A stretch of 64,000 nt of DNA from Candidatus Poribacteria bacterium. Its GTDB lineage: Bacteria > Poribacteria > WGA-4E > WGA-3G. The stretch is from positions 248,001 through 312,000 of the forward strand of contig JAJDTM010000005.1 of assembly GCA_022827185.1 (NCBI GenBank). Reading direction: 5' to 3'. Below, in pieces: positions 47,440 to 62,507 of the stretch (positions are counted from its first letter, which is position 1; each line of letters begins with the position of its first letter). A program made the position numbers and the translations under genes. The notes beneath the pieces are model-generated. The model searched no databases, was not told where the DNA came from, and worked only from the letters and a program-made list of their open reading frames with translations.

Positions 47440-47675
47440 AAAATTGCTCTGTTTTTTTCAAATTCCAAAAAAATGTAAATTTACCCTAAACTTCTTCAGT
47501 TTCATATCTGTACTAAATATATTACTGATTACAAATTTGTGCAACTGCCATAGCACACCTCTTTAACTGAAAACTGATAACCGACAACTGAAAACTAATA
47601 CTGTAGCATAAACTTTCAGTTTGTGCAGAGGAATTGTCAATCGTCAGTTGGTTTTGCCTAATATCAAGGAGAGAA

Positions 47676-50651
47676 ATGAAAGCGTTAATTTTGATTGTTG
47701 GCGTAAGTTTATTGGTGATCTCTTGTAATTCCACAGATAGGTCTACCAACATAATAGAACGTGACTTCACGATTAATGTTACCACCGAAATTGGTCAAAA
47801 TTTTGGAGAAGGGGCGTTACGCGTATCAAAATTAAACGAACTTTTGACATTAGACTCCTTTTCCTTTACTCGTTCAAACGTAGTTCCGGACGCTATGCGT
47901 GTGTTGTTTGTAAATATTGCTGATGAGTACGAAGGTAAGATGTTTCGATATCCACTCACCGTAGGAAAGACATGGGAGGACAAGTGGAACGCAACTGCTA
48001 AAACCACGCTTGAAGGTTATGAAAAGGTGGAAATTGTGCTTGGCACTTTCCCAGCGTGTCTCAAGCACAAAACCGTTCTTGCGGGCGCGCATATCGGCAG
48101 TGAATTGGAGAAATCACTTGTTAACGGCACCCGCTATCTTTGGTTTGCGAAGGGGATCGGAATTGTCAAAATGCGGTATGAACATTCAAACGGAATTGTT
48201 ACTGAAGCCGAATTAATCGCGCACTATGTCCCAGAAAAAAGCGATGAATACCTCCCAACAAATTTAGGCACTGCATGGACTTACAAATGGCAAAACGACT
48301 ATTACAACGAAGTGTTCATTGAAAAAGCACACATTGACGCTAACTCTAACACCAGAGAACACTTTAAAGGAGACCTCCGTCTCGCTATCAAAGTCACGAC
48401 TGAGAACGGCGAAGCATTAGGAACGAGAGATTTCTATATGAAAAAAACCGGGGCATTTCTGGGATTGAAACAGGCGAGTTCAAGACCCAGTATCCGGTCA
48501 AGTAGGACTGTTCCAGCTTCTCCAAGCCTATTCTTAAAGAATGTTAGTTCCTTTCATAGAACGGTGCTGTTCCACTTCCCGCTAACTATTGGACAGACTT
48601 GGAAGTACCAAGGACGGTCAGCTTCGCAAGCGCGGGTGACTATAGAACCTTATGAACAGGTTGAGATTTCGGTTGGTACTTTCCCTAAATGCCTCAAACA
48701 CAAAACTGTCTTTACGGAAGCAACCGCTAACACCGAAGCGGAAAGCGCAGTGGTTAACGGCACGCGTTATCTCTGGTTTGCGAAGGGTGTCGGGCTTATC
48801 AAAATGCGGTATGAACATTCAAACGGCGTTGTCACCGAAGCCGAATTAACCGAATACGAGGTGCCAGGAAAAAGTAAGGAATATCTACCGCTAAACCTCG
48901 GAACGACGTGGACTTATAGATGGCAGAACGACTATTACAAACCTATGATTGAAAAGGTTCGGGTTGTTGAAGCCGAAAGTGCCCATGAAACGCCTCTTCG
49001 GGATGCGCGATATGTTGTAACCGTATCTGCCGATCAACCCGCAGAGGCACAAGTCGTTTGTAAATTGACCCCACAGGAGCGTAGGGGCAAGAAAATTCGG
49101 CTGCGTACCAATAGTTATGGCTATTACATTTCTGGTCATCCTGTACACATTAAGGATACTACCGGTCGCATCCCGACGCGTCGATCAGGCAATTGGAAAT
49201 ACGAGTTTCGCAAAGCATATAAATCGCCACTAACGCTTACCTACAACGTTTCAATCAAACGTGATGAAGAGACCAGAGCATTTCTGGAAGCACGTGATGG
49301 TCGAGAGTTTGCTCGAGATCCAGCAACACATCCGTATCTCAGAGAAAACTGCACATTTTGGACAGGTCATCATTTATTTATCATTGGAGGGACAAACCGT
49401 AATATTGAGGTAGCATTCAACCTTCCGAAAGGTTGGCATGTTTCAACACCTTGGAAACACATCGGAAGCACAGGACACCGGTTTACTGTCAAAGATCAGC
49501 GAGAACTGACAGATTCCGCGATTCTCATCGGTGAATATGCTGAAGCGGTAGCAAAATTAGGCAAAACACAGGTGTCACTCGCCATCGGTGGAAGTCTGAA
49601 AGCGTCGAAAGCCGAGATGCAGAGTACTATTGAAAAATTTTTACGGGCATACTCCGAAGTGTTTAATGGCGGACCGGCAGATCCCGTTTTGTTTGTCATA
49701 AATCCTTATGAAAAGAAAGGACAGGAACGACTGAAAGGGCGTAGTATAGGGCGCAGCATCAGTATCCTTATGGACAGCACTTTAGATGAAACAAGCAAGC
49801 ACGGTTGGGGACCTTTCCTTGGACATGAAGTGTTCCATATCTGGAACGGGAACACCGCGCTGGAACCCTTCAGCCTGAGGGAACACTGGTTCCTTGAAGG
49901 CATCACCGATTATTATGCCGAGATCACTTCGGTTGACCTTGGTTATCTCTCGGAGCGTGAATTTTTTGATCGATTAGAGCGGGCGTGCGAATCGTATCTA
50001 TCAACGCCGAGCGATGATACTATCGGCGGCAGTTTCAAAGCGTCTCGGTTGGGTTATGATGGTGGCAGTATTGCTGCTGCCGTGTTAGATTTGCGAATCC
50101 GTCATCTCACAAAAAACAGGAGAAGCCTGGATCACGTGATGAAGCAGATGTACCGCAAATTCGGAGAGACTACCGAGAAATACACGCATCACGATATTAT
50201 TCAAGCACTCAATAAAGTCGCTGGTAAGGATTTTGAACCTTTTTTCCAAGCTTATATCTCAGGAAAAGAGAGACTGCCGATTCCAGAATATTTCAACTAT
50301 GCAGGTTTAGATGTACAGATAGAATACGGCGAAGAATTGCCGACAACTCGCTATGTAATTGGTGTGCTTCAAACCAGTTTGAAGAAAAAAACGTGGCGTT
50401 TAATTTCCGTCAACGGTATAGAGGTTGACGCGTTTGCAGACCTGCGCGAGCGTGCTAAAACATGGCAATCCGGTGACGTGCTGGAGTTAACAATCGAAGA
50501 AAATGGTGAAACGCTTACCTTACCTGTCACATTAAGTGGGGTTTCTGACAATCCGCCAACAGCATCGGATGCAAGTGTGTCTATTAGAAAAAAAGCAGAG
50601 ACTACTAAGTTGCAGCGCGCCATTTTGGCGGGCATTTTAGGTAAGAAATAA
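47676..50651 (+). CDS. M61-like lipoprotein aminopeptidase with duplicated N-terminal domain
   Basis: 991 residues. A lipoprotein signal ends LLVISCNS (lipobox Cys near residue 17). Two tandem repeats of about 120 residues follow (about 89-212 and 302-423), sharing NGTRYLWFAKG and KMRYEHSNG. An M61-like part shows HEVFHIWNG and EHWFLEGITDYYAEI (HExxH plus third-ligand Glu), and a PDZ-like end (about 888-958, RLISVNGIEVDAFADLRERA). It should be an outer-membrane-anchored or periplasmic peptidase. I chose ATG 47676 behind AAGGAGAG; the track start at 47634 gives no signal peptide. The cyclase gene follows after 20 bases. Confidence 0.85.
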   Translation: MKALILIVGVSLLVISCNSTDRSTNIIERDFTINVTTEIGQNFGEGALRVSKLNELLTLDSFSFTRSNVVPDAMRVLFVNIADEYEGKMFRYPLTVGKTWEDKWNATAKTTLEGYEKVEIVLGTFPACLKHKTVLAGAHIGSELEKSLVNGTRYLWFAKGIGIVKMRYEHSNGIVTEAELIAHYVPEKSDEYLPTNLGTAWTYKWQNDYYNEVFIEKAHIDANSNTREHFKGDLRLAIKVTTENGEALGTRDFYMKKTGAFLGLKQASSRPSIRSSRTVPASPSLFLKNVSSFHRTVLFHFPLTIGQTWKYQGRSASQARVTIEPYEQVEISVGTFPKCLKHKTVFTEATANTEAESAVVNGTRYLWFAKGVGLIKMRYEHSNGVVTEAELTEYEVPGKSKEYLPLNLGTTWTYRWQNDYYKPMIEKVRVVEAESAHETPLRDARYVVTVSADQPAEAQVVCKLTPQERRGKKIRLRTNSYGYYISGHPVHIKDTTGRIPTRRSGNWKYEFRKAYKSPLTLTYNVSIKRDEETRAFLEARDGREFARDPATHPYLRENCTFWTGHHLFIIGGTNRNIEVAFNLPKGWHVSTPWKHIGSTGHRFTVKDQRELTDSAILIGEYAEAVAKLGKTQVSLAIGGSLKASKAEMQSTIEKFLRAYSEVFNGGPADPVLFVINPYEKKGQERLKGRSIGRSISILMDSTLDETSKHGWGPFLGHEVFHIWNGNTALEPFSLREHWFLEGITDYYAEITSVDLGYLSEREFFDRLERACESYLSTPSDDTIGGSFKASRLGYDGGSIAAAVLDLRIRHLTKNRRSLDHVMKQMYRKFGETTEKYTHHDIIQALNKVAGKDFEPFFQAYISGKERLPIPEYFNYAGLDVQIEYGEELPTTRYVIGVLQTSLKKKTWRLISVNGIEVDAFADLRERAKTWQSGDVLELTIEENGETLTLPVTLSGVSDNPPTASDASVSIRKKAETTKLQRAILAGILGKK

Positions 50652-51897: not shown

Positions 51898-52875
51898 ATG
51901 AAACGACTATATACTTTCTGTTTGTGTTGCTTGAGTTTGGGGCTGGTGTATTCTGTCTCTGCGAAACCGCTCACAACCGAAAAAATTATCTTTTCGTCCT
52001 ATCGGAATGGCAACTCAGAAATTTATATGATGAATCCCGATGGCAGTGAACAGGTTAGATTAACCAATCACCGAGCAGACGATTTCAGTCCGGTCTGCTC
52101 ACCAACAGGGGAAGGAATCCTCTTCGTTTCTGATCGAGGTGGGGAGCGTGATCTCTATATTATGCGTGCTGATGGACACGGAGAGCGGCCTGTATTTCGC
52201 ACGTCACGCGCATATAGAGATGATCCCGCTTGGTCCCCTGATGGGAAAAAAATTGCTTATATTCAACTTAACCGTGAGGCTAAACGGACAGCCGTCTATA
52301 CTGCCAAGGCAGACGGAACGTCGGCAAACCGCGTTGTTGAAATAGAAAAAGCGGATGGTGAAGAGCCCGTCTGGTCCCCGGATGGAACAGAAATTGCGTA
52401 TGTTGTGAGGGATGAGATTCGCTGGGCGAGCCGCCAGATCCGATTTATCAACCTAAAAACCGACGAGCAAGAGACACTCCAACTGGAGGGTGACCAGCGA
52501 ATGTTCCAACCGGCATGGTCACCGACTCACAACAAAATCGCCTTTGTCTGGCACAGACAGGAGCTTGGGCAACAGTCTATATTCATCGTCAATCGCGATG
52601 GTAGTGGACTTCAACAGATTGTTGACGCGATTGTTGTTGTCCCGGGGCGGACAATGCTCACTTGGTCGCCGTCTGGTGATGAACTCGTCTATTCCCAATC
52701 GGTTGGCGGTAAATTTCAGATTTTCAAAATCAATGTGGTAACGCTCGAAATTACGCAACTGACGCATGAAGGAAGCAATTATGTAGGCAATTGGTTTGAC
52801 CCATTGACTTTATCTGTTTCACCGCAGCCCCAATTGTTCAAAACCACATGGGGTGAAATCAAAGGTCAGGATTGA
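51898..52875 (+). CDS. PD40/TolB-like beta-propeller protein, copy 1, TTWG tail
   Basis: 325 residues. Signal peptide (residues 1-22, ending SVSA). Then six TolB-like units with the PD40 signature (GNSEIYMMNPDG, DRGGERDLYIMRADG, PAWSPDGKKIAY, PVWSPDGTEIAY, MLTWSPSGDELVY). The C-terminus reads LSVSPQPQLFKTTWGEIKGQ; TTWGxLK-like tails are shared with two other proteins in the window. A periplasmic or surface protein-binding role is inferred. ATG behind AAGGGAAA. A lipoprotein gene follows. Confidence 0.85.
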   Translation: MKRLYTFCLCCLSLGLVYSVSAKPLTTEKIIFSSYRNGNSEIYMMNPDGSEQVRLTNHRADDFSPVCSPTGEGILFVSDRGGERDLYIMRADGHGERPVFRTSRAYRDDPAWSPDGKKIAYIQLNREAKRTAVYTAKADGTSANRVVEIEKADGEEPVWSPDGTEIAYVVRDEIRWASRQIRFINLKTDEQETLQLEGDQRMFQPAWSPTHNKIAFVWHRQELGQQSIFIVNRDGSGLQQIVDAIVVVPGRTMLTWSPSGDELVYSQSVGGKFQIFKINVVTLEITQLTHEGSNYVGNWFDPLTLSVSPQPQLFKTTWGEIKGQD

Positions 52876-52943
52876 ACCTGGATGATTGCGTATGTTGATA
52901 AATGCTAAATCCTTTTACGCCATCAATATTTCATAGATTCTGT

Positions 52944-52993
52944 TGGCATAGGAATTGCCATTTACTTGACGAGGTTAACGAGGGGAGTTTATT
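52944..52993 (+). promoter_or_regulatory. Promoter block of lipoprotein gene 1
   Basis: GGCATAGGAATTGCCATTTA precedes TTGACG (52966-52971) and TTTATT (52988-52993), 16 bases apart. It matches the block at 51788. If this is the promoter, the GTG at 52994 of the track ORF is too close to be the start codon. Confidence 0.5.
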
Positions 52994-53023
52994 GTGGGAA
53001 CTCAAATTTTCCAACAAGCCTTT

Positions 53024-53479
53024 TTGAAAATAAACAGATTTGCGTTAACTTTACATTTCGCGTTTATCGTAAGCATTTTACTGACCGGATGTACGGCACC
53101 AGCGCATTTGCGGCATAAGTCACATCCTTCTACCTCAGAACTCTCGTCGGAAGAGAAAATGCAGCAAACTATAGATAGATGGAAAGGCACACACATTTCA
53201 AAAGCTGTTCAGAGATGGGGATCACCAAAGGCGGTTAACGACGACGGTGCAGGTTGGCAAACCTATATTTGGCAAGTGCCCGTGCAGACATTCCTTGCCC
53301 CACAACATCACCGAATCTTTTCCCAGCGACACCCCAACGGCTTAAACGGAGTATCAGGAACAATCTTACAGACAGATTACAACTACGAACTCACCTTTTA
53401 TGCGCGTCCGGACGGTATAATTTCCAAAACTGACATCAAAAAAAATTATGACCCCGCAAGTGAACTCAAATGGAAGTAG
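53024..53479 (+). CDS. Small lipoprotein, copy 1
   Basis: 151 residues from TTG 53024: KINRFALTLHFAFIVSILLTGC gives a normal lipoprotein signal with the lipobox LLTGC. The mature part has ISKAVQRWGSPKAVNDDG and TYIWQVPVQTFL, shared with copy 2 at 54656. The track start GTG 52994 sits directly on the -10 box, so I prefer TTG 53024; aligned to copy 2, the base triplet at its ATG is ATA here (53030). The family is unknown; the RWGxP...YIW pattern recalls small outer-membrane lipoproteins. Confidence 0.7.
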   Translation: MKINRFALTLHFAFIVSILLTGCTAPAHLRHKSHPSTSELSSEEKMQQTIDRWKGTHISKAVQRWGSPKAVNDDGAGWQTYIWQVPVQTFLAPQHHRIFSQRHPNGLNGVSGTILQTDYNYELTFYARPDGIISKTDIKKNYDPASELKWK

Positions 53480-53580
53480 AAGTCTTTAGTACTATTCACT
53501 ACGGAATAACCACATTTATTTTCTGATGCCGTTAGCATTTTATTGGGTATTTCTGAATGACCTACATGGAGCATATAAAC

Positions 53581-54549
53581 ATGAAAGAAAAATTTACCTA
53601 TATTGTCGTGTTGGCGACGACACTACTATTCGGGCATTTCTTGCTCGCGGCGAACTGTTATGTCTACGCGTCAGATGTTCCGTCCATCGCCTTTAGTTCC
53701 AAACGGAATGAAAATTATGATATCTACATGATGGATATAAACGGCAAGAATCTCCAGCAGTTGACAGACGATTTAGCCCATGAGACTTATCCCACGTTTT
53801 CACCGGACGGACAGCAGATGGCTTATGTTTCCTCTCGGGCAGGTAATGACGACATTTATGTGATGAACCTCGAGACAAAGGTATCCGAACCCTTGACGAA
53901 CCATCCGGCAGATGACTTTAGTCCCGCATGGTCTCCAGATGGACGATGGATAGCGTTTGTTTCCGAGAGAGCAGGGACGCTTGACATCTACAAAATCGAA
54001 CCCAGCGGTGCGAATCTCCAACAGTTGACGGACGCGGATGAGAAGAACAACACCCCTGCTTGGTCCCCTGATAGCCAATTCATCGCTTATCGTTCTTTCA
54101 AAAACCCCGCTGGTATCTATATAATGGATGCGGAGGGCGGAAATCCGAGGAGGCTCGACAACCAACCTAACCAGGCATGGACACCGGCGTGGTCTCCGGA
54201 TGGGAAGCAGATCGCCTTTAGCGCAGTTTTTTTTGAAGGCTATGACATCGGCATCCTAAACGTTGATGGGACAGATCTCAGACGGATCACCCGCCATCTG
54301 AACGGTGAGACATCGCCGGTCTGGGCCCCTGATGGACACACGATTGTTTTCATGTCCTGGTGGGACAGAACTTCTGACATCTATCGAACAGATATCAACG
54401 GCATCATAGGGAATCGTCGTAGATTGACTCGCCATCCGGAGATAGACATGGGGCCGACGTGGATACCAACAGGTGCTCTTTCTGTCTCTCCGACGATCAA
54501 CACACACACGACCTTGTGGGGTAGACTGAAGCAGGCTGTCCACGACTAA
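53581..54549 (+). CDS. PD40/TolB-like beta-propeller protein, copy 2, TTLWG tail
   Basis: 322 residues from ATG 53581 (GGAG nine bases upstream); the track start at 53557 adds residues before the signal peptide. Signal peptide to about residue 31. PD40 units include NYDIYMMDINGKN, TFSPDGQQMAY, DDFSPAWSPDGRWIAF, TPAWSPDSQFIAY and SPVWAPDGHTIVF. The C-terminus GALSVSPTINTHTTLWGRLK parallels copy 1. It is the second half of a duplicated two-gene module. Confidence 0.87.
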   Translation: MKEKFTYIVVLATTLLFGHFLLAANCYVYASDVPSIAFSSKRNENYDIYMMDINGKNLQQLTDDLAHETYPTFSPDGQQMAYVSSRAGNDDIYVMNLETKVSEPLTNHPADDFSPAWSPDGRWIAFVSERAGTLDIYKIEPSGANLQQLTDADEKNNTPAWSPDSQFIAYRSFKNPAGIYIMDAEGGNPRRLDNQPNQAWTPAWSPDGKQIAFSAVFFEGYDIGILNVDGTDLRRITRHLNGETSPVWAPDGHTIVFMSWWDRTSDIYRTDINGIIGNRRRLTRHPEIDMGPTWIPTGALSVSPTINTHTTLWGRLKQAVHD

Positions 54550-54655
54550 ATGAGGGGCATTTGTTGACAAGGTGTCCGGCCCCTGCACATTTAATGCGGA
54601 TCTTAGAACGTTCTCAAGATGAGAGAATGCAGCCATATCGCAAGGAGATTTGAAA

Positions 54656-55135
54656 ATGAACAAATTCACACCGCTCGTATTCGTCGCAAGTATCTTACTC
54701 GTCGGTTGTACGGCACCCAAGTATTTGATGAACACCCCCGAACCTTCACCAGAGAAAGAAGAAATACAGCGGAAAGAAGTACAGCGGATTCTGGAGGTGT
54801 GGCACGGAAGGCACATTTCAACGGCGATTCAAAAATGGGGAACACCCCATGGAATCAGCAATACCGACACAGGTTCAAAAATTTACATCTGGCAGACACC
54901 TTCGCTGACTTTTCTACAGCAAGCACATCGCGAAATCATTTCCAGCAGACAGTCAGTTAACCTCGGACGCCGGGTAACACAGACACCCGAGGTAACAGTT
55001 AAAATGTATCAACTCATGTTTCACACAGATCCAAAGGGTGTAATTTACAAAATTTCGGCGAAAAGGGATCTGAACCCCAGTGCTGGTTCTCGGAGTTCCC
55101 ATTTTTCTCAAGAGAAACCGGGGGTCAGAAAATAA
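54656..55135 (+). CDS. Small lipoprotein, copy 2
   Basis: 159 residues. Lipoprotein signal FVASILLVGC ends with the lipobox Cys at residue 18. The mature part carries ISTAIQKWGTPHGISNTDTG and KIYIWQTPSLTFLQQ, homologous to copy 1, then a polar tail. ATG 54656 has AAGGAG eight bases upstream; the TTG at 54650 in the track is less likely. TTGACA lies at about 54564 but a -10 box is not clear. The next gene starts 4 bases after the stop. Confidence 0.8.
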   Translation: MNKFTPLVFVASILLVGCTAPKYLMNTPEPSPEKEEIQRKEVQRILEVWHGRHISTAIQKWGTPHGISNTDTGSKIYIWQTPSLTFLQQAHREIISSRQSVNLGRRVTQTPEVTVKMYQLMFHTDPKGVIYKISAKRDLNPSAGSRSSHFSQEKPGVRK

Positions 55136-55139
55136 TACA

Positions 55140-55979
55140 ATGAAACTACCGACTATTTCTATCGCATCACATCGCGTCACGCGGCTTATCATCGGTGGCA
55201 ACCCGTATAGTGGCATTTCGCACCGTTCTGCAGCAGCATCAAAAGCGATGATAGACTACTATACGGTGCACCAAATCATGGCAGACCTCCGACAAGCGGA
55301 GGAGAATGGGATCAATACCGTCCTCGCGCGTGCCGATCGACATATCATGCGCGTCCTCAACGAATATTGGAATACCGGTGGCACAATTCAGTGGATCGCG
55401 CAAACCCCCAAAGATACAGAATACGCCGATCTCAATGAATACCTACAGATGATCGCGCGCTATAAACCGATTGCTATCTACCATCACGGCGGTACCACCG
55501 ATAAGTTATATGTCGAAGGACGACTGGACTCGTTGCACGAAAGCCTCAAACACATTCGGGATCTCGGCTGCGCTGTCGGACTCGGCACGCACGATCCGTT
55601 GGTCCTCAAACATTGCTACACTGAAGGATATGATGTTGACTTTTATGTCTGTGCATTGTATAATCATACAAGACATAGAGAACGCTATCTGCCAGATGAT
55701 CGAGAGACAGCTTTCACCGCCATACAAGCCATACCTACACCGATAATCGCGATAAAGGTATTAGCCGCTGGCAGAAATGAACCGCGTGAGGCATTTCAAC
55801 TTGGACTCGAAAACATCAAATCCATAGATGCAATGGCAGTTGGAATGTACACACAATTTCAACCCGACCAAATCCACCAGAATGCAATAACTGTTGCTGA
55901 ACTCATTAGAAAGTCAGAAAATGAACCGAATTGTAGAACCAGAAGTTATGGACACAACGGAAGCCGCCGAAGCTTATGA
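55140..55979 (+). CDS. TIM-barrel protein resembling aldo/keto reductases
   Basis: 279 residues from ATG 55140. The start RLIIGGNPYSGISHRS, and later IAIYHHGGTTDKLY, VGLGTHDPLVLKHC and PTPIIAIKVLAAGR, look like an aldo/keto reductase-type barrel, but the Tyr/Lys catalytic pair is not clear. Function unknown. The track start 55080 overlaps the lipoprotein gene. It overlaps the methyltransferase gene by about 59 bases. Confidence 0.72.
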   Translation: MKLPTISIASHRVTRLIIGGNPYSGISHRSAAASKAMIDYYTVHQIMADLRQAEENGINTVLARADRHIMRVLNEYWNTGGTIQWIAQTPKDTEYADLNEYLQMIARYKPIAIYHHGGTTDKLYVEGRLDSLHESLKHIRDLGCAVGLGTHDPLVLKHCYTEGYDVDFYVCALYNHTRHRERYLPDDRETAFTAIQAIPTPIIAIKVLAAGRNEPREAFQLGLENIKSIDAMAVGMYTQFQPDQIHQNAITVAELIRKSENEPNCRTRSYGHNGSRRSL

Positions 55980-56574
55980 TGCGATGGGGCACGGCGAAGT
56001 TGATCAGGCTTTCGTTGACCGCGTCGTCGCACTCGGCGCGAGCACCGGACATTTTCTCGATGTCGGCACCGGTCCCGCACAGATTCCCATCCTACTCGCA
56101 CAACGTTGTCCCGATATCCACATCACCGCCATTGACCTGTCCGAGGAGATGCTAAAGATAGCGAAACGCCACGTCGCAGATGCGGGTCTCACGGATCGGA
56201 TAACCCTCGAACGCGTCGATGCCAAAACCTTACCTTATCCCGATAACACCTTTGACGGACTGATCTCCAACAGCATCGTGCATCACATCCACGACGCGAT
56301 GAAGGCACTCAAAGAGATAGGCAGAGTTGCGCGTTCCGAAGGCGTTATTCTCATCCGAGACCTCATCCGTCCAGAAACCCCAGCAGACGCACAAGCCTTT
56401 GTCGATCGCTATGCAGCAGATGATACTCCTTACCAACAGAAGTTATACTACGACTCTTTCTTCGCCGCGTTCACCATCGCAGAAGTCAACGAAATGCTAA
56501 CGCAGATGGATATGCCCGGTGCTGTTGTCGTCCAAAGCACGGATCGGCATTGGTCCATTGAGCGTGCTGGATGA
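55921..56574 (+). CDS. Class I SAM-dependent methyltransferase
   Basis: 217 residues from ATG 55921. Motif I FLDVGTGPAQIPILLA, motif II ITAIDLSEEMLKIAKRH, motif IV DGLISNSIVHHI and motif VI region ILIRDLIRP are those of class I enzymes. Substrate unknown. Binding site weak, and an upstream TTG (55894) is possible. A diverged copy of its 3' end lies 0.5 kb downstream. Confidence 0.85.
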   Translation: MNRIVEPEVMDTTEAAEAYDAMGHGEVDQAFVDRVVALGASTGHFLDVGTGPAQIPILLAQRCPDIHITAIDLSEEMLKIAKRHVADAGLTDRITLERVDAKTLPYPDNTFDGLISNSIVHHIHDAMKALKEIGRVARSEGVILIRDLIRPETPADAQAFVDRYAADDTPYQQKLYYDSFFAAFTIAEVNEMLTQMDMPGAVVVQSTDRHWSIERAG

Positions 56575-56671
56575 TTTTCAAATCAGGATTTACAAAATAA
56601 GGCGGGTTCACGCGGCTTGGTACTTCCTATGTAATGACAGGTTCATATCCACTAACCAAATATGTCCGTGC

Positions 56672-56929
56672 CTAATATTCATCAATGAAATCTCCTGATT
56701 GCCATTCAGTGCGTTCATCTGCTGTTTCTTCATAATGAGTTTTCATCTGTTCCGCTTGTTGTGCCAGAACTTGGCGGCGTTCATCTACGGAAAGACGCAT
56801 GAAGGCTGCTTGAGGTGACTGTGCTTCCCCTACCGCCAACTCAGCCAATAAGCAGTACGCTAAAGGTAACTCCGTTTCTGGAATTTTCGTGACTAATTGC
56901 TGGATCTCGGCGTATGTGATTGTTTTCAT
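56672..56929 (-). CDS. Orphan antitoxin-like protein
   Basis: 85 residues: YAEIQQLVTKIPETELPLAY, then MRLSVDERRQVLAQQAEQMK and the ending DERTEWQSGDFIDEY. From memory this ending (WxxGDFxDxY) is common in small antitoxins partnered with PemK/MazF- or PIN-type toxins. No toxin gene lies downstream on this strand; the neighbour is the convergent methyltransferase gene. A good promoter lies at 56984-57013, so it may still be expressed. Start ATG at 56929 behind AGGAGAGA. Confidence 0.65.
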   Translation of the reverse strand: MKTITYAEIQQLVTKIPETELPLAYCLLAELAVGEAQSPQAAFMRLSVDERRQVLAQQAEQMKTHYEETADERTEWQSGDFIDEY

Positions 56930-56983
56930 CTTTCTCTCCTATCATAATAACGCAACATTTTCAACTTTGGATAGTTCAATAGA

Positions 56984-57013
56984 ATTATACAACGATTTTT
57001 TGCAAAGGGTCAA
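56984..57013 (-). promoter_or_regulatory. Sigma70-like promoter of the orphan antitoxin gene
   Basis: On the minus strand TTGACC (57008-57013) and TATAAT (56984-56989) lie 18 bases apart, 54 bases upstream of the ATG at 56929. Confidence 0.5.
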
Positions 57014-57076
57014 TAAAAAACAAAGGTCAGTGAAAAGTTAAGTTTGATAGATCTCTAAAAATGTGGATAATACCCT

Positions 57077-57223
57077 TACCAACAGAAGTTGTATTACGAC
57101 TCCTTCCTCACCGCGTTCACTATCGTAGAAGTCAATGAGATGCTAACACAGATGGACATGCCGGGTGCCACCGTCGTCCAAAGTACGGATCGGCACTGGT
57201 CTATTGAACGCGCTGTTTCGTAG
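57077..57223 (+). pseudogene. 3' fragment of a methyltransferase paralog
   Basis: The segment translates as YQQKLYYDSFLTAFTIVEVN, then EMLTQMDMPGATVVQSTDRH and a stop, matching the last 47 residues of the 55921 methyltransferase. There is no start or motif I upstream. About fourteen differences are silent and only about four change residues. So it is the remnant of a once functional paralog, cut off by deletion. Confidence 0.7.
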
Positions 57224-57681
57224 CAACCAGTTTTGTGGGGGCCGCTGGAAGCATTAGTAGTCTGTCAATATTGAAATTTAGGACGAGATTACAGGAGAAA
57301 ACCAATCTTTTCCTATAGGAGCGAGTGTTTTTGCTTATAGGAAATCCGAAGAAATACCCAAGCAATACGCAGAAATACCCTATCAAAGACCCCAAGCAAA
57401 AACACCCCCAGCAAAAACGGGGTTTCTTGTCGCTCGCGATTTATACCCTTGCCAGATTTTTTCGCATAGCCTGTAGCATAGGCTGTTAGCCTGTGCATCT
57501 GTAGAGACATTCAGTTTTCAAGGTTGTAGCGCGCTTTTAAATGGCAACACTGCAGGCACAACCTAACAGGTTATGCTACAAAGACCTATCTTTTTTAAAC
57601 CCATGTCCTATTAGATGCTGCATGTCCATAATAGCACCATTTATTGACAAAAACTTTACACACCCTATCTTTCAAAATGGT

Positions 57682-57710
57682 TTGACATTCGCGTTGGAAT
57701 GTGTTAATAT
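57682..57710 (+). promoter_or_regulatory. Strong sigma70-like promoter upstream of the 1280-aa gene
   Basis: TTGACA (57682-57687) and TAATAT (57705-57710) are 17 bases apart, 38 bases before the ATG. One of the closest matches to consensus in the window. Confidence 0.65.
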
Positions 57711-57748
57711 GTGATTTTAAATTTTAGACCGAAAAAGATAAAAGAAAA

Positions 57749-60700
57749 ATGAAACGCGACGCTTCGACAAAAGAAAACAGCATGCGCTTTCTAACCACGA
57801 CAATTCTAATTGGGATAGTCTGTATGCTTTGGGCTGAACCCACCGAACCTGCCGAACTGACCATCGTTGACAATACCGTTCTTGTCAAAACCGACGCGTA
57901 CGAAGTCCAATTTGAAAACGGTGTTATTACGCAGCTCCATAACAAACTCACAACTGAAACTTACACCTTGCCTCTCAGTGTTGATGGGGTGCCTATAGGT
58001 ATTGGGGGGCGCAGTGGATTATTAAGGAGAAACGGTGGACATGTTTGGGTGGACCAGATTGCGCTAACAGCGGCAAGAAAAACCGCTCCACTTAAAGCAG
58101 AACTTGTGTTTAGCCATAGGAAAAATGAAATTCGCTTGTTTATAAGGGTCGACGAGCATACAAGCGATCTGCTGATTGAACAAGAGGGTATTTCGGGCAC
58201 AGGTGGGGTCTATGGGATTCAATGGGGGTGTGGAAATCTGGGGGTCAGGGATGTAGACCTCATTCTTCCAGCAGAAGGAGGGCAAATCATTGGAGCGACA
58301 TCTCCAATTACCTCTAAAAGTTTTGGTTACCCCGGTAAGTGGGAAGTACAACTCGCGATACTTCAAGGCGAACACGGAGGATTTTTCGTTCGCGGAGCAG
58401 ATGAAACTTTTCAGTTTAAAGCACTCCACTATGAAAAAGATGTAGACAGTTTTGCACTCGGCTTTGAAACTCAAAACCAGGCCCCTTTTGACACACTTAC
58501 CTCCGCTCAGTCTGTTACGTGGCGATTGAATACATACAGAGGGGACTGGCGTGTACCTGCAAGGGAATATAGGAATTGGATGGAACAGACATTTGAGCCT
58601 TGGAGTTTGTCAGATATACCAACATGGATTTCCGAAATCGGTTTGGTTGTTATTCATACAGGGCACTTGGATACCAGTATGTTGGATAAGTTGGCAGAAC
58701 AAATAGATCCGACAAAAACCTTACTGTATGTTGTAGATACTTGGCGTAAAGACAATTACGATGTTAATTACCCGGATTATACAGCGAGAAGTGGTTTTAG
58801 TAATTTCCTTGAGATCGCCCATCAACACGGATTCCGTGTTATACTTCATACAAATCTTCTCGGCATATCACCATATCATCCGCTCTACGCGGAATTTCAG
58901 CAATTTCAATTTCGAGACCCCTGGAACGGCAAACTCATCGGTTGGCGTTGGAACGAAACAGAGAATCCAAAGCGGCACGCCTTTATTAACCCAGCAAGTT
59001 CTGAATTTAGAAAGTTGTTTGTTCAAAAACTTAAGGCGGTATGGGAAAAATACAAAGTAGAAGGTTTTCACTTAGATGTCAGCCACCTGGTTGTAAACGA
59101 TGCAAATGGACTGATTGAAGGATTAAATGCCGCTCAAGGTAATATGCTGCTTCACCGAGAATTGGTAGAAGCGATGCCGGGTGCTGTTTTCAGCGGTGAG
59201 AGTCTTCACGAAGTCACTTTTTTCCGTGAAAACTTTGTTCAGCGTTGGCCTCTACATCCAACAGTAAAACCTGATCCTGTCAGCACATTTCTTTTTTCTC
59301 CTTACACATCGCCTTACGGGTATTTGGGCATGCCAAATCCAGATACAGACCCCTCACGGTATCAACAAATCCTGGATTCATATGAGAGTTGGGGGATTCT
59401 CCCTACCTTTCGTTACGGAAGTATAGAACAATTGGAACCTGAACGTGCTGGAATGCAGAAATTACTCTCAATCGCTCGTGCTTGGCAGCAACTTGGTTTT
59501 AAGCCTGACTTTGAAACAGACTGGGGGATTGATACACTGTTCCAGTATGTGGGTAAGGATGGTGAAATTGCAACGATCAAAGCCACGGATGGAGGAGCTG
59601 CTTTTGATTTGCCACTTGGTGAGGTCGGATATGAAAGGGTCTTTGGTGTAACACAGGTGAAGACGAATCGGAGTCTACCACATTGGCATGCTTACAATGA
59701 GACGCAAATACTCGGTCTGGATCCCAAAAAGTCTTATCTCTTGAGCGATACCCCACGCGATTTCTCTCAAGCACATATTAATTCATTACCAGAAGGCGTT
59801 TCTGTCACAGAATCACGTGTGACTAAAAACGCTGCACTGTTTCGATTGGAAAGGATTAATGTCTCTCAGGAAATTGATTTATTGTCTCAGTTACATCTTG
59901 TAAGGCAAGGTATCGTCGTGAATGGACAAGAATTGCCACGGCAAAAGGGGGCAACTTTTCGGCTGGTTGAAACGTCCATTTCTGGAATCCGTAAGACTGC
60001 AATTGACGCACATCCACCTTGGCAAGGTATTATCGGTGATACATTCGCGGAATGGACACTTTCTCTTCCGGATAGTTCAGATATTTGTTTAGAATTTGAT
60101 ATCGGATTACCAGATGATTCTAAAAACTCTGATGGGGTGTCTTTTATTGTTTCTATCCAAGGCAATGAAATTTTTAAAGAACATTACAATCAACAAAAGT
60201 GGAAACATATTAGTCTTGATTTGACATCTTATCGTGGACAAGATATCACACTCCGTTTAACAACTAATCCGGGCCCCAATGAAAACACAGTGTCGGATGG
60301 GGCAAAATGGGGAGAACCTAAAATCATTGCCGCACCACCGGATACGCTTACTAAAATAGGGTTTTTCTTACCAAACGAGCCGATAAAGAGTTCCCCCGAA
60401 ACCATAAAACGGATAGGAAATGGACAATATTCACTTGAAACTCTGCTCCCCGCACAAATTCTTTTTTTCTTTCAATCCGGTGAACAAGTTGATTTTCCAT
60501 ATAATCTGAGAAGTGCTCATTTTGTTGCAGGGCTGCAATTTGATGGTATATTCCAATTAGGAAATGTCTGGCACTCAGGTGAACGATGGGAACCAACTAT
60601 CGGTGGAATACGTAAGAAAAGCATTTCTGCCCATCCTCCTTCTCACGGACAAACTGTTCTGCAGTTCTTGTTGTCTCTACCTCAAACCCAAAAGGTAACG

Positions 60701-61591
60701 TTTTCTTTTGCAATGGGATTACCCGATGAAAGTTGGAGTTGCAGTGATGGTGTGTCGTTTAAAGTGATGCTAAACGGACATGAACAGTTTGAGCACTTCA
60801 TAAAGACTCACGGATGGACAGACGCGTCTATTTCTCTTTCTGAATTCTCAAGTAAAACCGTGTTATTAGAATTAGTAACAGATCCGGGCCAACACACCTG
60901 CGGTGATTCGGCGCAATGGGCCGATTTGCTTATCATCGCTGAGGGAGCTGAACTGAATGGCGATGTCAATCAGGACGGAACAGTCAACATCCTTGATCTT
61001 GTGCTTGTGGGACAGAATCTTGGGCAAAAGCCACCGTCCGATCCGAGGGCAGATGTCAACAATGATGGACAGGTAAACGTTCTTGACCTTGTGTTTGTCG
61101 CAGAGCGTCTCGGTGAAAAGGTAGCTGCTGCACCTACACAGATAGATACTATTGTGTCCAATACATTCTCTTCTGAAGAAATTATTGTGGTACGGCGTGC
61201 CCTGAAAGAATTAGAAGCAATGTCCCAGAAGTCTCAAAATGTTAAAGTAGCGATTCAAGTTTTACGTGCTTGGCTAACAAACGCCAATCAGAGCGTCACG
61301 GAAACGAAATTACTGCCAAATTACCCCAACCCATTCAATCCGGAAACATGGATCCCTTATCAGTTGGCGGAAGCAGCAGATGTAAGTGTGAAAATCTACG
61401 ATATCGGTGGGCGTTTGGTCCGAACAATTCCTGTCGGGTTCAAACCTATAGGATACTATCTTACGCAAGAACGTGCAGCCTATTGGGATGGACGGAATGA
61501 GATAGGCGAGTCTGTGTCAAGCGGTGTCTATTTTTTACAGTTCGTAGCAGGGGACTTTTCCACGACACAGCAAATCGTGATATTGAAATAG
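57749..61591 (+). CDS. Secreted glycosidase-like protein with dockerin and PNPFNP sorting domain
   Basis: 1280 residues. Signal peptide near the start (ATG 57749; ATG 57782 is a shorter option). A beta-sandwich N-terminal part (about 30-275) and a TIM-barrel-like region (about 280-620, FHLDVSHLV; GWRWNETENPKRHAFINPAS) resemble DUF6259/GH-type glycosidases. Two similar beta-sandwich modules of about 110 residues (about 745-865 and 950-1065, each with AHPP and SDGVSF) look like NPCBM-type sugar-binding units. A dockerin type I pair (GDVNQDGTVNILDLVLV and ADVNNDGQVNVLDLVFV) precedes a type IX-like C-terminal domain beginning LLPNYPNPFNPETWIPYQL. Confidence 0.87.
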   Translation: MKRDASTKENSMRFLTTTILIGIVCMLWAEPTEPAELTIVDNTVLVKTDAYEVQFENGVITQLHNKLTTETYTLPLSVDGVPIGIGGRSGLLRRNGGHVWVDQIALTAARKTAPLKAELVFSHRKNEIRLFIRVDEHTSDLLIEQEGISGTGGVYGIQWGCGNLGVRDVDLILPAEGGQIIGATSPITSKSFGYPGKWEVQLAILQGEHGGFFVRGADETFQFKALHYEKDVDSFALGFETQNQAPFDTLTSAQSVTWRLNTYRGDWRVPAREYRNWMEQTFEPWSLSDIPTWISEIGLVVIHTGHLDTSMLDKLAEQIDPTKTLLYVVDTWRKDNYDVNYPDYTARSGFSNFLEIAHQHGFRVILHTNLLGISPYHPLYAEFQQFQFRDPWNGKLIGWRWNETENPKRHAFINPASSEFRKLFVQKLKAVWEKYKVEGFHLDVSHLVVNDANGLIEGLNAAQGNMLLHRELVEAMPGAVFSGESLHEVTFFRENFVQRWPLHPTVKPDPVSTFLFSPYTSPYGYLGMPNPDTDPSRYQQILDSYESWGILPTFRYGSIEQLEPERAGMQKLLSIARAWQQLGFKPDFETDWGIDTLFQYVGKDGEIATIKATDGGAAFDLPLGEVGYERVFGVTQVKTNRSLPHWHAYNETQILGLDPKKSYLLSDTPRDFSQAHINSLPEGVSVTESRVTKNAALFRLERINVSQEIDLLSQLHLVRQGIVVNGQELPRQKGATFRLVETSISGIRKTAIDAHPPWQGIIGDTFAEWTLSLPDSSDICLEFDIGLPDDSKNSDGVSFIVSIQGNEIFKEHYNQQKWKHISLDLTSYRGQDITLRLTTNPGPNENTVSDGAKWGEPKIIAAPPDTLTKIGFFLPNEPIKSSPETIKRIGNGQYSLETLLPAQILFFFQSGEQVDFPYNLRSAHFVAGLQFDGIFQLGNVWHSGERWEPTIGGIRKKSISAHPPSHGQTVLQFLLSLPQTQKVTFSFAMGLPDESWSCSDGVSFKVMLNGHEQFEHFIKTHGWTDASISLSEFSSKTVLLELVTDPGQHTCGDSAQWADLLIIAEGAELNGDVNQDGTVNILDLVLVGQNLGQKPPSDPRADVNNDGQVNVLDLVFVAERLGEKVAAAPTQIDTIVSNTFSSEEIIVVRRALKELEAMSQKSQNVKVAIQVLRAWLTNANQSVTETKLLPNYPNPFNPETWIPYQLAEAADVSVKIYDIGGRLVRTIPVGFKPIGYYLTQERAAYWDGRNEIGESVSSGVYFLQFVAGDFSTTQQIVILK

Positions 61592-61610
61592 AACATAGGT
61601 TTTCAACATC

Positions 61611-61658
61611 TCCTCATCCTGGTCATCCTATAATCTTGCGAATCCTGATTCAGACAAT
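61611..61658. repeat. AATCCTGATTCAGA repeat tract
   Basis: CATCCTGGTCATCCTATAATC then GCGAATCCTGATTCAGACAA match the repeat type seen at 3600 and 23430. It lies between the glycosidase-like and LamG genes. Confidence 0.5.
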
Positions 61659-61686
61659 ATTTTTATACATTTCATTTCCAAAAATG

Positions 61687-61695
61687 TGTTATAAT
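61687..61695 (+). promoter_or_regulatory. Extended -10 promoter of the LamG gene
   Basis: TGTTATAAT gives TGn directly before TATAAT (61690-61695), an extended -10 element, 62 bases before the ATG. No good -35 box is visible at 17 bases. Confidence 0.45.
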
Positions 61696-61757
61696 ATTAA
61701 CAACAAATCCCCAAGATACAAATCTAAAATTTCGCGCTTACAATAGGAGAAATTGCA

Positions 61758-62507
61758 ATGCCTAAAGTTACCTTTGTTTTGTCGCTATGCGCGCTCCTGA
61801 TTATCCCCAGCCTTAGTATCGCCAATGTCGCAGAAGACGGACTCGTCGCCTACTGGCCCTTTGATGAAGGCGATGGTAAAAAAGCCGAAGATATCACTGG
61901 CAATGGACATGACGGAGAATTTAACGGGAATCCCAAGTGGATTGATGGAAAGTTCGGTACCGGACTCGAATTTGACGGTGAGGAGGACCATGTCGTTGTC
62001 GCCGATGACGCCGCTTTAGCAATTGAAGAAAATATCACCTTCATGGCGTGGTTCAGTCCAAACGATGTACTCACCAGACGCCGCTTAATGGTTAAAAATA
62101 ACTCTATCTTCGTTATTTTTGACTTCGGTAATGTGGATAGCATCGATTTCCTCGTCAAACCGAACAATACCTTTGCAGAATCCAAAACAACCGATTGGAA
62201 AATTGGCGAATGGTATCACTTCGCTGGGACGTTCGATGGAAAGACCATGAAGGTCTACGTGAACGGCAAGCTCGAAGGCGAAGCGGATAACGATGTACCG
62301 ATTGCGCCTTCCAACTTAGAACTTTGGATTGGTGGTGACGATTTCGGGAGACCAACCGACTTTTTCCCGGGTAAAATTGATGAAGTACGCCTTTATGAGA
62401 AAACCTTGAGCGAAGCCGACATCCAAAAGGTCATGGAGACACCACAAGACGTTGAAGCGCGTGGTAAACTCACCACAACGTGGGGGAAACTAAAGACTGG
62501 GTTATAA
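61758..62507 (+). CDS. Exported LamG/concanavalin-like domain protein with TTWG tail
   Basis: 249 residues. Signal peptide (residues 1-22, ending SIANVA). One LamG-type jelly roll (about 28-225): DGLVAYWPFDEGDGKKAEDI, GHDGEFNGNPKWIDGKFG, WYHFAGTFDGKTMKVYVNGK and KIDEVRLYEKTLSEADI. It then ends GKLTTTWGKLKTGL, the third protein of the window with a TTWGxLK tail. Probable sugar or surface binding. ATG behind AGGAGA. Confidence 0.9.
   Translation: MPKVTFVLSLCALLIIPSLSIANVAEDGLVAYWPFDEGDGKKAEDITGNGHDGEFNGNPKWIDGKFGTGLEFDGEEDHVVVADDAALAIEENITFMAWFSPNDVLTRRRLMVKNNSIFVIFDFGNVDSIDFLVKPNNTFAESKTTDWKIGEWYHFAGTFDGKTMKVYVNGKLEGEADNDVPIAPSNLELWIGGDDFGRPTDFFPGKIDEVRLYEKTLSEADIQKVMETPQDVEARGKLTTTWGKLKTGL

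Follow-up and report, generated by a model that had tools for sequence, protein, structure and literature searches.

Why should exported proteins built on unrelated folds end in almost the same residues? This question is raised by a 64,000-nucleotide stretch of a Candidatus Poribacteria genome (contig JAJDTM010000005.1, positions 248,001 to 312,000; the whole stretch is called the window below), in which two PD40 beta-propeller proteins and one LamG protein, all with signal peptides, close on TTWGEIKGQD (stop codon at 52873-52875), TTLWGRLKQAVHD (stop at 54547-54549) and TTTWGKLKTGL (stop at 62505-62507). A sequence-only reading of the locus had pointed to these three endings, which were indeed found where it had placed them, and had taken them for a sorting, anchoring or partner-docking signal. 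Compared across sequences, the ending, hereafter the TWG tail, proves to be one conserved and mobile peptide, selected at the peptide level, exclusively C-terminal, carried by many folds and present throughout the phylum. We argue that it is probably a mobile C-terminal sorting (address) signal for proteins that are exported through Sec and cut by signal peptidase I (SPase I). The three genes and their tails are as follows (bits are scores of a position-specific scoring matrix, PSSM; AF2, AlphaFold2; pLDDT, predicted local distance difference test; ORF, open reading frame).

51898..52875, forward strand: PD40 (TolB-like) beta-propeller protein 1, with signal peptide, bearing tail 1 (ORF; Pfam PD40, 8e-28)
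52810..52872, forward strand: tail of PD40 protein 1, LSVSPQPQLFKTTWGEIKGQD (27.4 bits, adjoining the stop codon; aligned with 17 paralogues)
53557..54549, forward strand: PD40 beta-propeller protein 2, with signal peptide, bearing tail 2 (Pfam PD40, 2e-54; AF2 propeller blocks mostly at pLDDT >90)
54478..54546, forward strand: tail of PD40 protein 2, LSVSPTINTHTTLWGRLKQAVHD (29.0 bits; AF2 pLDDT <50 for residues 309-330)
61758..62507, forward strand: LamG/ConA-like (Laminin_G_3) protein, with signal peptide, bearing tail 3 (Pfam, 8.5e-29)
62448..62504, forward strand: tail of the LamG protein, DVEARGKLTTTWGKLKTGL (47.8 bits; AF2 pLDDT <50 for residues 233-246)

Shape of the tail and its occurrence in the genome

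The conserved unit occupies about 20 residues at the C-terminus and has the consensus [LF]xVx[PA]xxK[LA][TA]TTW[GA]x[LI]K-x(1-10)-COOH, in which, counted from W at 0, V lies at -10, P/A at -8, K at -5, L at -4, TT at -2/-1, G/A at +1, L/I at +3 and K at +4. The sequence-only reading was therefore right about the C-terminal place of the tail and made it too short, at the last 10-13 residues; the LSVSP that it had noticed ahead of the tail in both PD40 proteins is where the unit itself begins, and corresponds to DVEARGK in the LamG protein. In a logo of 92 tails, V(-10) is found in 67, P/A(-8) in 69, K(-5) in 71, L(-4) in 69, T(-2) in 73, T(-1) in 69, L/I(+3) in 85, and W and K(+4) in all 92, after which 1-10 residues vary; the regular expression used to collect this set prescribed W, G and K, and members found later show A instead of G at +1.

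When the six frames of the window were scanned with the PSSM, the three tails listed above were the only positions scoring above 10 bits; since the matrix was trained on paralogues from the same genome, including these three proteins, it separates them from the rest and is no independent test. Such a test was provided by the DNA pattern ACNTGGGGNNNNHTNAAR, which has 109 matches in the genome (6.1 Mb, 65 contigs) against 3 for the reversed pattern. Proteins were examined in sixty stretches of this genome, mostly of 20 kb (about 1.2 Mb in all) and enriched for tail matches, with ORFs predicted by a simple codon-usage caller. A scan for C-terminal matches, as the sequence-only reading had suggested, gave 92 C-terminal and no internal matches of the regular expression among 915 predicted proteins, and with the PSSM 107 proteins scored at least 21 bits, their best match always being C-terminal, well apart from the next best score of 8.4 bits. 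The same picture was obtained in six frames without gene calling, where 111 matches reached 20 bits and 111/111 lay at most 16 residues from a stop. Chance is excluded as the origin of the tail by the counts of DNA matches (109 versus 3) and protein matches (92 versus 0), together with the bimodal PSSM scores.

Synonymous codon use is free, for example at T(-1) (ACA 23, ACT 23, ACG 23, ACC 11) while the peptide is kept, indicating that selection acts on the peptide and not on the DNA; a DNA repeat is ruled out by this diversity. A motif internal to the proteins or linked to one fold was also rejected, because the matches are exclusively C-terminal and the tail is kept across diverged LamG bodies. 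An amphipathic helix was considered as well and is not proposed, the hydrophobic moment of the tail (0.284) being no better than that of shuffled sequences (0.274). The tail peptide found no relatives in the PDB, NCBIfam and Pfam searches of the window proteins returned no model covering it, and a search of open-access papers found no description of it.

The same tail on unrelated folds

Pfam agrees with the folds that had been assigned from the letters alone to the three window proteins, two PD40 and one LamG. Among the 107 tailed proteins of the genome sample there are 54 with Laminin_G_3, 21 with PD40 and 11 with 3keto-disac_hyd, and ten odd members include Kelch, CBM9, NPCBM with dockerin (locus L056), DUF4960 and several proteins without any family, so that the bearers span at least seven Pfam architectures. 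The window LamG protein has 103 match stretches in its own genome, and most of the full-length ones align through the tail. Across 26 LamG proteins with a mean column identity of 32%, only three columns show no variation; two of these are the W and K of the tail, whose V, K, L and T hardly vary either.

In AlphaFold models, the LamG protein of the window (pLDDT 82.5) and PD40 protein 2 (86.5) have confident folds followed by a tail below 50, which places the tail outside either domain; it is predicted to be disordered and detached from both of the folds modelled, with a helix placed in it at low confidence in the LamG model. An objection foreseen in the sequence-only reading, that the tails could align as part of a wider homologous domain, does not hold in view of the number of architectures, the variable linker and the predicted disorder.

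Tailed proteins and export

A signal-peptide-like N-terminus is present on 103 of the 107 tailed proteins, in agreement with the proposal that the bearers are exported, and the four exceptions are two ORFs cut at a locus edge, one fragment and one alternative start. Statistics were restricted to contigs C44 and C19 (about 0.8 Mb), which were sampled nearly whole. There the expected enrichment on signal-peptide proteins was strong, the tail being carried by 31 of 97 SPase-I-type proteins versus 7 of 464 others (odds ratio 31, p = 1e-19), and these seven are mostly start-call errors or near misses of the signal-peptide heuristic. Among SPase-I-type proteins shorter than 450 aa the proportion rises to 31/67, and none of the 19 lipoproteins of these Poribacteria contigs has a tail. 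As far as sequence tells, the bearers are unrelated, mostly small (<450 aa) and largely carbohydrate-binding or propeller-type exported domains. Their genes tend to form tandem arrays, with 95 neighbouring pairs of tail genes on the same strand versus 3 on opposite strands.

Distribution across genomes

The sequence-only reading had connected such endings with Poribacteria, and this is borne out: the DNA pattern occurs in 85/85 Poribacteria genomes (10 families, 22 genera), with 3 to 109 matches versus 0 to 7 for the control, a few low-count genomes being near the control level. Nearly all of 30 loci inspected from five distant Poribacteria genomes are genuine C-terminal tails, and G009, which has 3 pattern matches, carries further tails of WA type. 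When a stricter pattern was run over 85,462 species genomes, 76 of the 80 loci listed belonged to Poribacteria-named genomes and 89 of the 89 matches listed were C-terminal.

There is credibly one other lineage with the tail, represented by G085, a sponge metagenome-assembled genome (MAG) labelled Pseudomonadota with about 6 tails, and its relative G089 with about 9, all on exported proteins. Their bearers (L255-L257, L317-L325) are matrixin-like or ankyrin proteins and unassigned ones, of families other than those of Poribacteria, and some begin with a lipobox-like SAC when read by eye; in other relatives of the two genomes the pattern is at background. Isolated matches were also obtained in archaeal, Deltaproteobacteria and Clostridia MAGs (L188, L159 and L180). 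The Clostridia match was rejected, being an ORF of 24 codons that lacks the V(-10)/P part, and the tail genes in L159 (Deltaproteobacteria) and L188 (Thermoprotei) are likely to be binning contamination.

An alternative to the PNPFNP domain

Between the second PD40 gene and the LamG gene, the window encodes a large protein with another type of ending, the PNPFNP C-terminal domain (CTD) of the type IX secretion system (T9SS).

57749..61591, forward strand: 1280-aa protein with DUF6259, NPCBM and dockerin, ending in a PNPFNP CTD instead of a tail (TIGR04183, 30.8 bits, cut-off 23; Dockerin_1; NPCBM)
61322..61582, forward strand: PNPFNP/Por_Secre_tail domain of the 57749 protein (match to the T9SS-type CTD profile; never together with the tail)

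The two endings had been regarded as distinct, and in all Poribacteria loci examined they do not coincide, since none of the 303 tailed proteins also has the 89-aa PNPFNP CTD found on 10 proteins. Most CTD proteins are large, with a maximum of 2912 aa, and the tailed ones are small (median 257). In 5 of the 10 proteins with a CTD, the body is homologous to that of a tailed protein (E 3e-40 to 6e-6), and one NPCBM-dockerin module ends in PNPFNP in the 57749 protein and in the tail in L056. These homologies show the bodies to be interchangeable, with either the tail or the T9SS-type CTD at the end. Neither ending is present on a 1005-aa protein encoded at 47634-50651 of the window, whose domains resemble M61 glycyl aminopeptidase and DUF3108 and whose N-terminus is lipoprotein-like.

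T9SS-like genes in Poribacteria

A single-cell study of 2014 described T9SS-type tails in Poribacteria and reported no Por (T9SS) structural genes (PMC3909097), and our search of open-access papers found no report of a T9SS in this phylum. In our searches, a SprA homologue of about 2,200 aa was found in 38/39 Poribacteria genomes versus 0/14 controls, scoring 162 bits over the whole protein (E 1e-47), below the curated cut-off of 200. The PorV family is present in at least 13 copies per Poribacteria genome with scores over the cut-off, and a PorU-like C25 protein in 11/11 Poribacteria (NF033707, 406 bits versus a cut-off of 420). In three genomes the PorU-like C25 gene (1.8-2.1 thousand aa) lies directly upstream of a PorV2-like gene (L250:6113-13499, L251:7047-13642 and L252:8547-15233). 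A GldM search gave no match, the positive control being likewise silent. In the tail-bearing G089 and G085 SprA was not detectable, and in G085 neither was C25. These genes make a T9SS-like apparatus likely in Poribacteria, which would fit the PNPFNP proteins and may possibly read the TWG tail as well; the SprA, PorU-like and PorV-family genes revise the earlier statement of absent machinery (PMC3909097).

Other features of these genes were noted. The SprA-like gene is single-copy across Poribacteria (C59:25422-29270 in the window's genome, L105; also L106-L110), and immediately upstream of it, genomes of the window's genus have a LamG gene with a tail. The PorV/PorQ family is expanded to 13-21 copies per Poribacteria genome, and further C25 copies (L253, L254) end in a FlgD/T9SS-type domain.

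Genes next to the tail genes

Of 19 exported FG-GAP/UnbV_ASPIC proteins, spread over several paralogous loci, 18 have a tail gene no more than two genes away, against a background of 24%; in the window's genome this holds for 6/6 such proteins (CRTAC1-like). The following loci are concerned.

L022:9066-10703, FG-GAP/UnbV_ASPIC protein
L050:16537-18228, FG-GAP/UnbV_ASPIC protein
L057:9246-10850, FG-GAP/UnbV_ASPIC protein
L059:2656-4419, FG-GAP/UnbV_ASPIC protein
L067:13751-15415, FG-GAP/UnbV_ASPIC protein
L070:5865-7601, FG-GAP/UnbV_ASPIC protein

This adjacency, found after the fact in loci selected for tails, is a lead towards a docking partner. Clustering of the neighbours of tail genes yielded no recurrent membrane enzyme, no search having been aimed at a cognate transpeptidase or intramembrane protease. 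With regard to the type II secretion system (T2SS), G089 has a cluster of T2SS-type genes (T2SSE 437 bits, T2SSF 197 bits), and the window's genome encodes a GspG-type pseudopilin (113 bits) with no neighbouring gsp genes.

What the tail may do

According to the reading that we favour, a tailed protein would cross the inner membrane via Sec and be cut by signal peptidase I, the tail would be displayed in flexible, linear form and read by a receptor in the cell envelope, so that the folded protein would cross the outer membrane and/or be held at the surface. Contacts would be made by the invariant W and K(+4) and by V(-10), K(-5), L(-4) and G/A(+1), which vary little. An exosortase-like enzyme is not expected because the tail lacks both a transmembrane helix and a basic cluster, and the most concrete candidate for the reader is the T9SS-like SprA/PorV/PorU machinery. 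The fold independence claimed in the sequence-only reading is thus borne out, while the role in post-Sec sorting or docking is what we infer from the pattern of occurrence.

Several points weigh against a sorting role. No receptor or processing enzyme for the tail emerged from the searches for T9SS parts or from neighbour clustering, the destination of the tailed proteins at the surface or outside is deduced from their sequences, and export was scored with a home-made heuristic and not with SignalP. About two thirds of the SPase-I-type proteins in C44 and C19 carry neither tail nor CTD, and therefore the tail is not required for export generally. Most tailed proteins are paralogues from the expanded LamG and PD40 families, though unrelated folds also bear the tail, and complex assembly, chaperone binding or a stability tag would give the same pattern. 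A more specific form of the sorting proposal, a dedicated undescribed system with the TWG tail and its own envelope receptor, neither of sortase/exosortase nor of classical T9SS CTD type, and passed to or common with at least one other sponge-symbiont lineage, is plausible, and we stop a little short of calling it probable.

Among the other explanations, the tail could be a very short T9SS-type signal handled by a divergent Poribacteria SprA/PorV/PorU in parallel to the PNPFNP CTD. The near-constant presence of these three components, the adjacency of C25 and PorV genes and the mutual exclusion of tail and CTD on homologous bodies speak for it, and there is precedent in Hbp35 of P. gingivalis, whose last 22 residues suffice for T9SS secretion of GFP, and in the short T9SS CTDs of Prevotella, of 40-51 aa (PMC11969387). 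On the other side, the tail has neither Motif B nor the GxY Motif D and matches no T9SS model, G089 and G085 together have at least 15 tailed proteins although SprA is undetectable in both, PorV copies do not track tails (109 pattern matches and 13 PorV in the window's genome, 23 and 21 in G025), and the GldM motor search was blank, as was its positive control; we regard this explanation as unlikely, while giving it serious weight. A docking tail would attach to a scaffold non-covalently, much as dockerin does to cohesin, and would thereby keep tailed proteins at the surface or assemble them there. This would suit the abundance of lectin-like and propeller domains, among which enzymes are not obvious, the tandem arrays and the FG-GAP/UnbV_ASPIC neighbours. 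Since that adjacency is post hoc in loci chosen for tails, no cohesin-like partner was identified and one tailed protein (L056) already has a dockerin, docking is in our opinion rather improbable.

The T2SS, which moves folded periplasmic exoproteins over the outer membrane, is a weaker rival. Its cargo would suit, being folded, SPase-I-exported and made of small lectin, propeller or protease domains, and T2SS-type genes are present as described above; but a linear T2SS signal is not known, only GspG was seen in Poribacteria, which falls short of a complete T2SS, and T2SSs are widespread in phyla without the tail, so that recognition of the tail by a T2SS is quite improbable. The tail could also serve processing or turnover, as a tag for a periplasmic protease (Tsp/DegP-like) or a chaperone. 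Its extreme C-terminal position and predicted disorder would agree with this, but tags of that kind tend to be generic and hydrophobic, unlike a motif of 20 residues that keeps W and K invariant and is found on one third of the SPase-I-exported proteins, and the restriction to one phylum would be left unexplained; we consider this reading very improbable. An artefact of paralogy or of spread at the DNA level, the tail being an ancestral remnant or a mobile gene-end element, could be suspected from the strong expansion of LamG and PD40 and from the tandem arrays, and is hardly conceivable given that unrelated folds have the tail in common, synonymous sites are free while the peptide is kept, and the peptide persists over ten families of the phylum.

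If the tail is indeed a sorting signal, its interest goes beyond the window. Poribacteria are dominant uncultured sponge symbionts, and the route by which their many lectin-like and propeller proteins may reach the surface has so far been open; a tail carried by roughly one in three SPase-I-exported proteins would be a sequence handle on a phylum-wide secretome.

Comparison with known C-terminal signals

The T9SS CTDs of types A and B (TIGR04183, TIGR04131), and with them the short CTDs known from Prevotella intermedia (PMC11969387), resemble the tail in being C-terminal, independent of fold, without a transmembrane helix and attached to proteins exported by Sec and cut by SPase I, and one or more conserved basic residues at the end are common to both, in the tail only the terminal K. 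They differ in being 40-100 residues of beta-sheet, while the tail has about 20 residues predicted to be disordered, and in having Motif B and the GxY Motif D (PMC11969387), neither of which appears in the tail logo. When the CTD profiles (TIGR04183/PF18962) were run on the three tailed window proteins no match was found, whereas the 57749 protein matches.

The PEP-CTERM/exosortase, LPXTG/sortase, GlyGly-CTERM/rhombosortase (PMC3237569) and MYXO-CTERM systems likewise place one short signal on many unrelated exported proteins, in a many-to-one relation. In the sortase, exosortase and rhombosortase signals, however, a transmembrane helix and a basic cluster are present, whereas the TWG motif is followed by only 1-10 residues with no hydrophobic helix and no Arg/Lys cluster; those signals are also paired with an integral-membrane enzyme, and for the tail none recurred among the gene neighbours, no dedicated search having been made. 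Type I dockerins, which pair with cohesins, are modular C-terminal docking elements on diverse extracellular proteins, as the tail may be, but a dockerin is a calcium-binding fold of about 60 aa with a duplicated loop and the tail a linear peptide; Dockerin_1 does not match the tails, and the dockerin of L056 is a separate domain upstream of its tail. In the sequence features compared here, the tail departs from T9SS CTDs, exosortase/sortase-type signals and dockerins.

In form, the tail comes close to the cargo-loading peptides of encapsulins and the encapsulation peptides of bacterial microcompartments, which are short, linear C-terminal targeting peptides after a flexible linker; those cargoes are cytosolic, whereas the tail bearers have Sec signal peptides. 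To the short list of C-terminal sorting signals the TWG tail would add one that is independent of fold and dispenses with both membrane anchor and folded domain.

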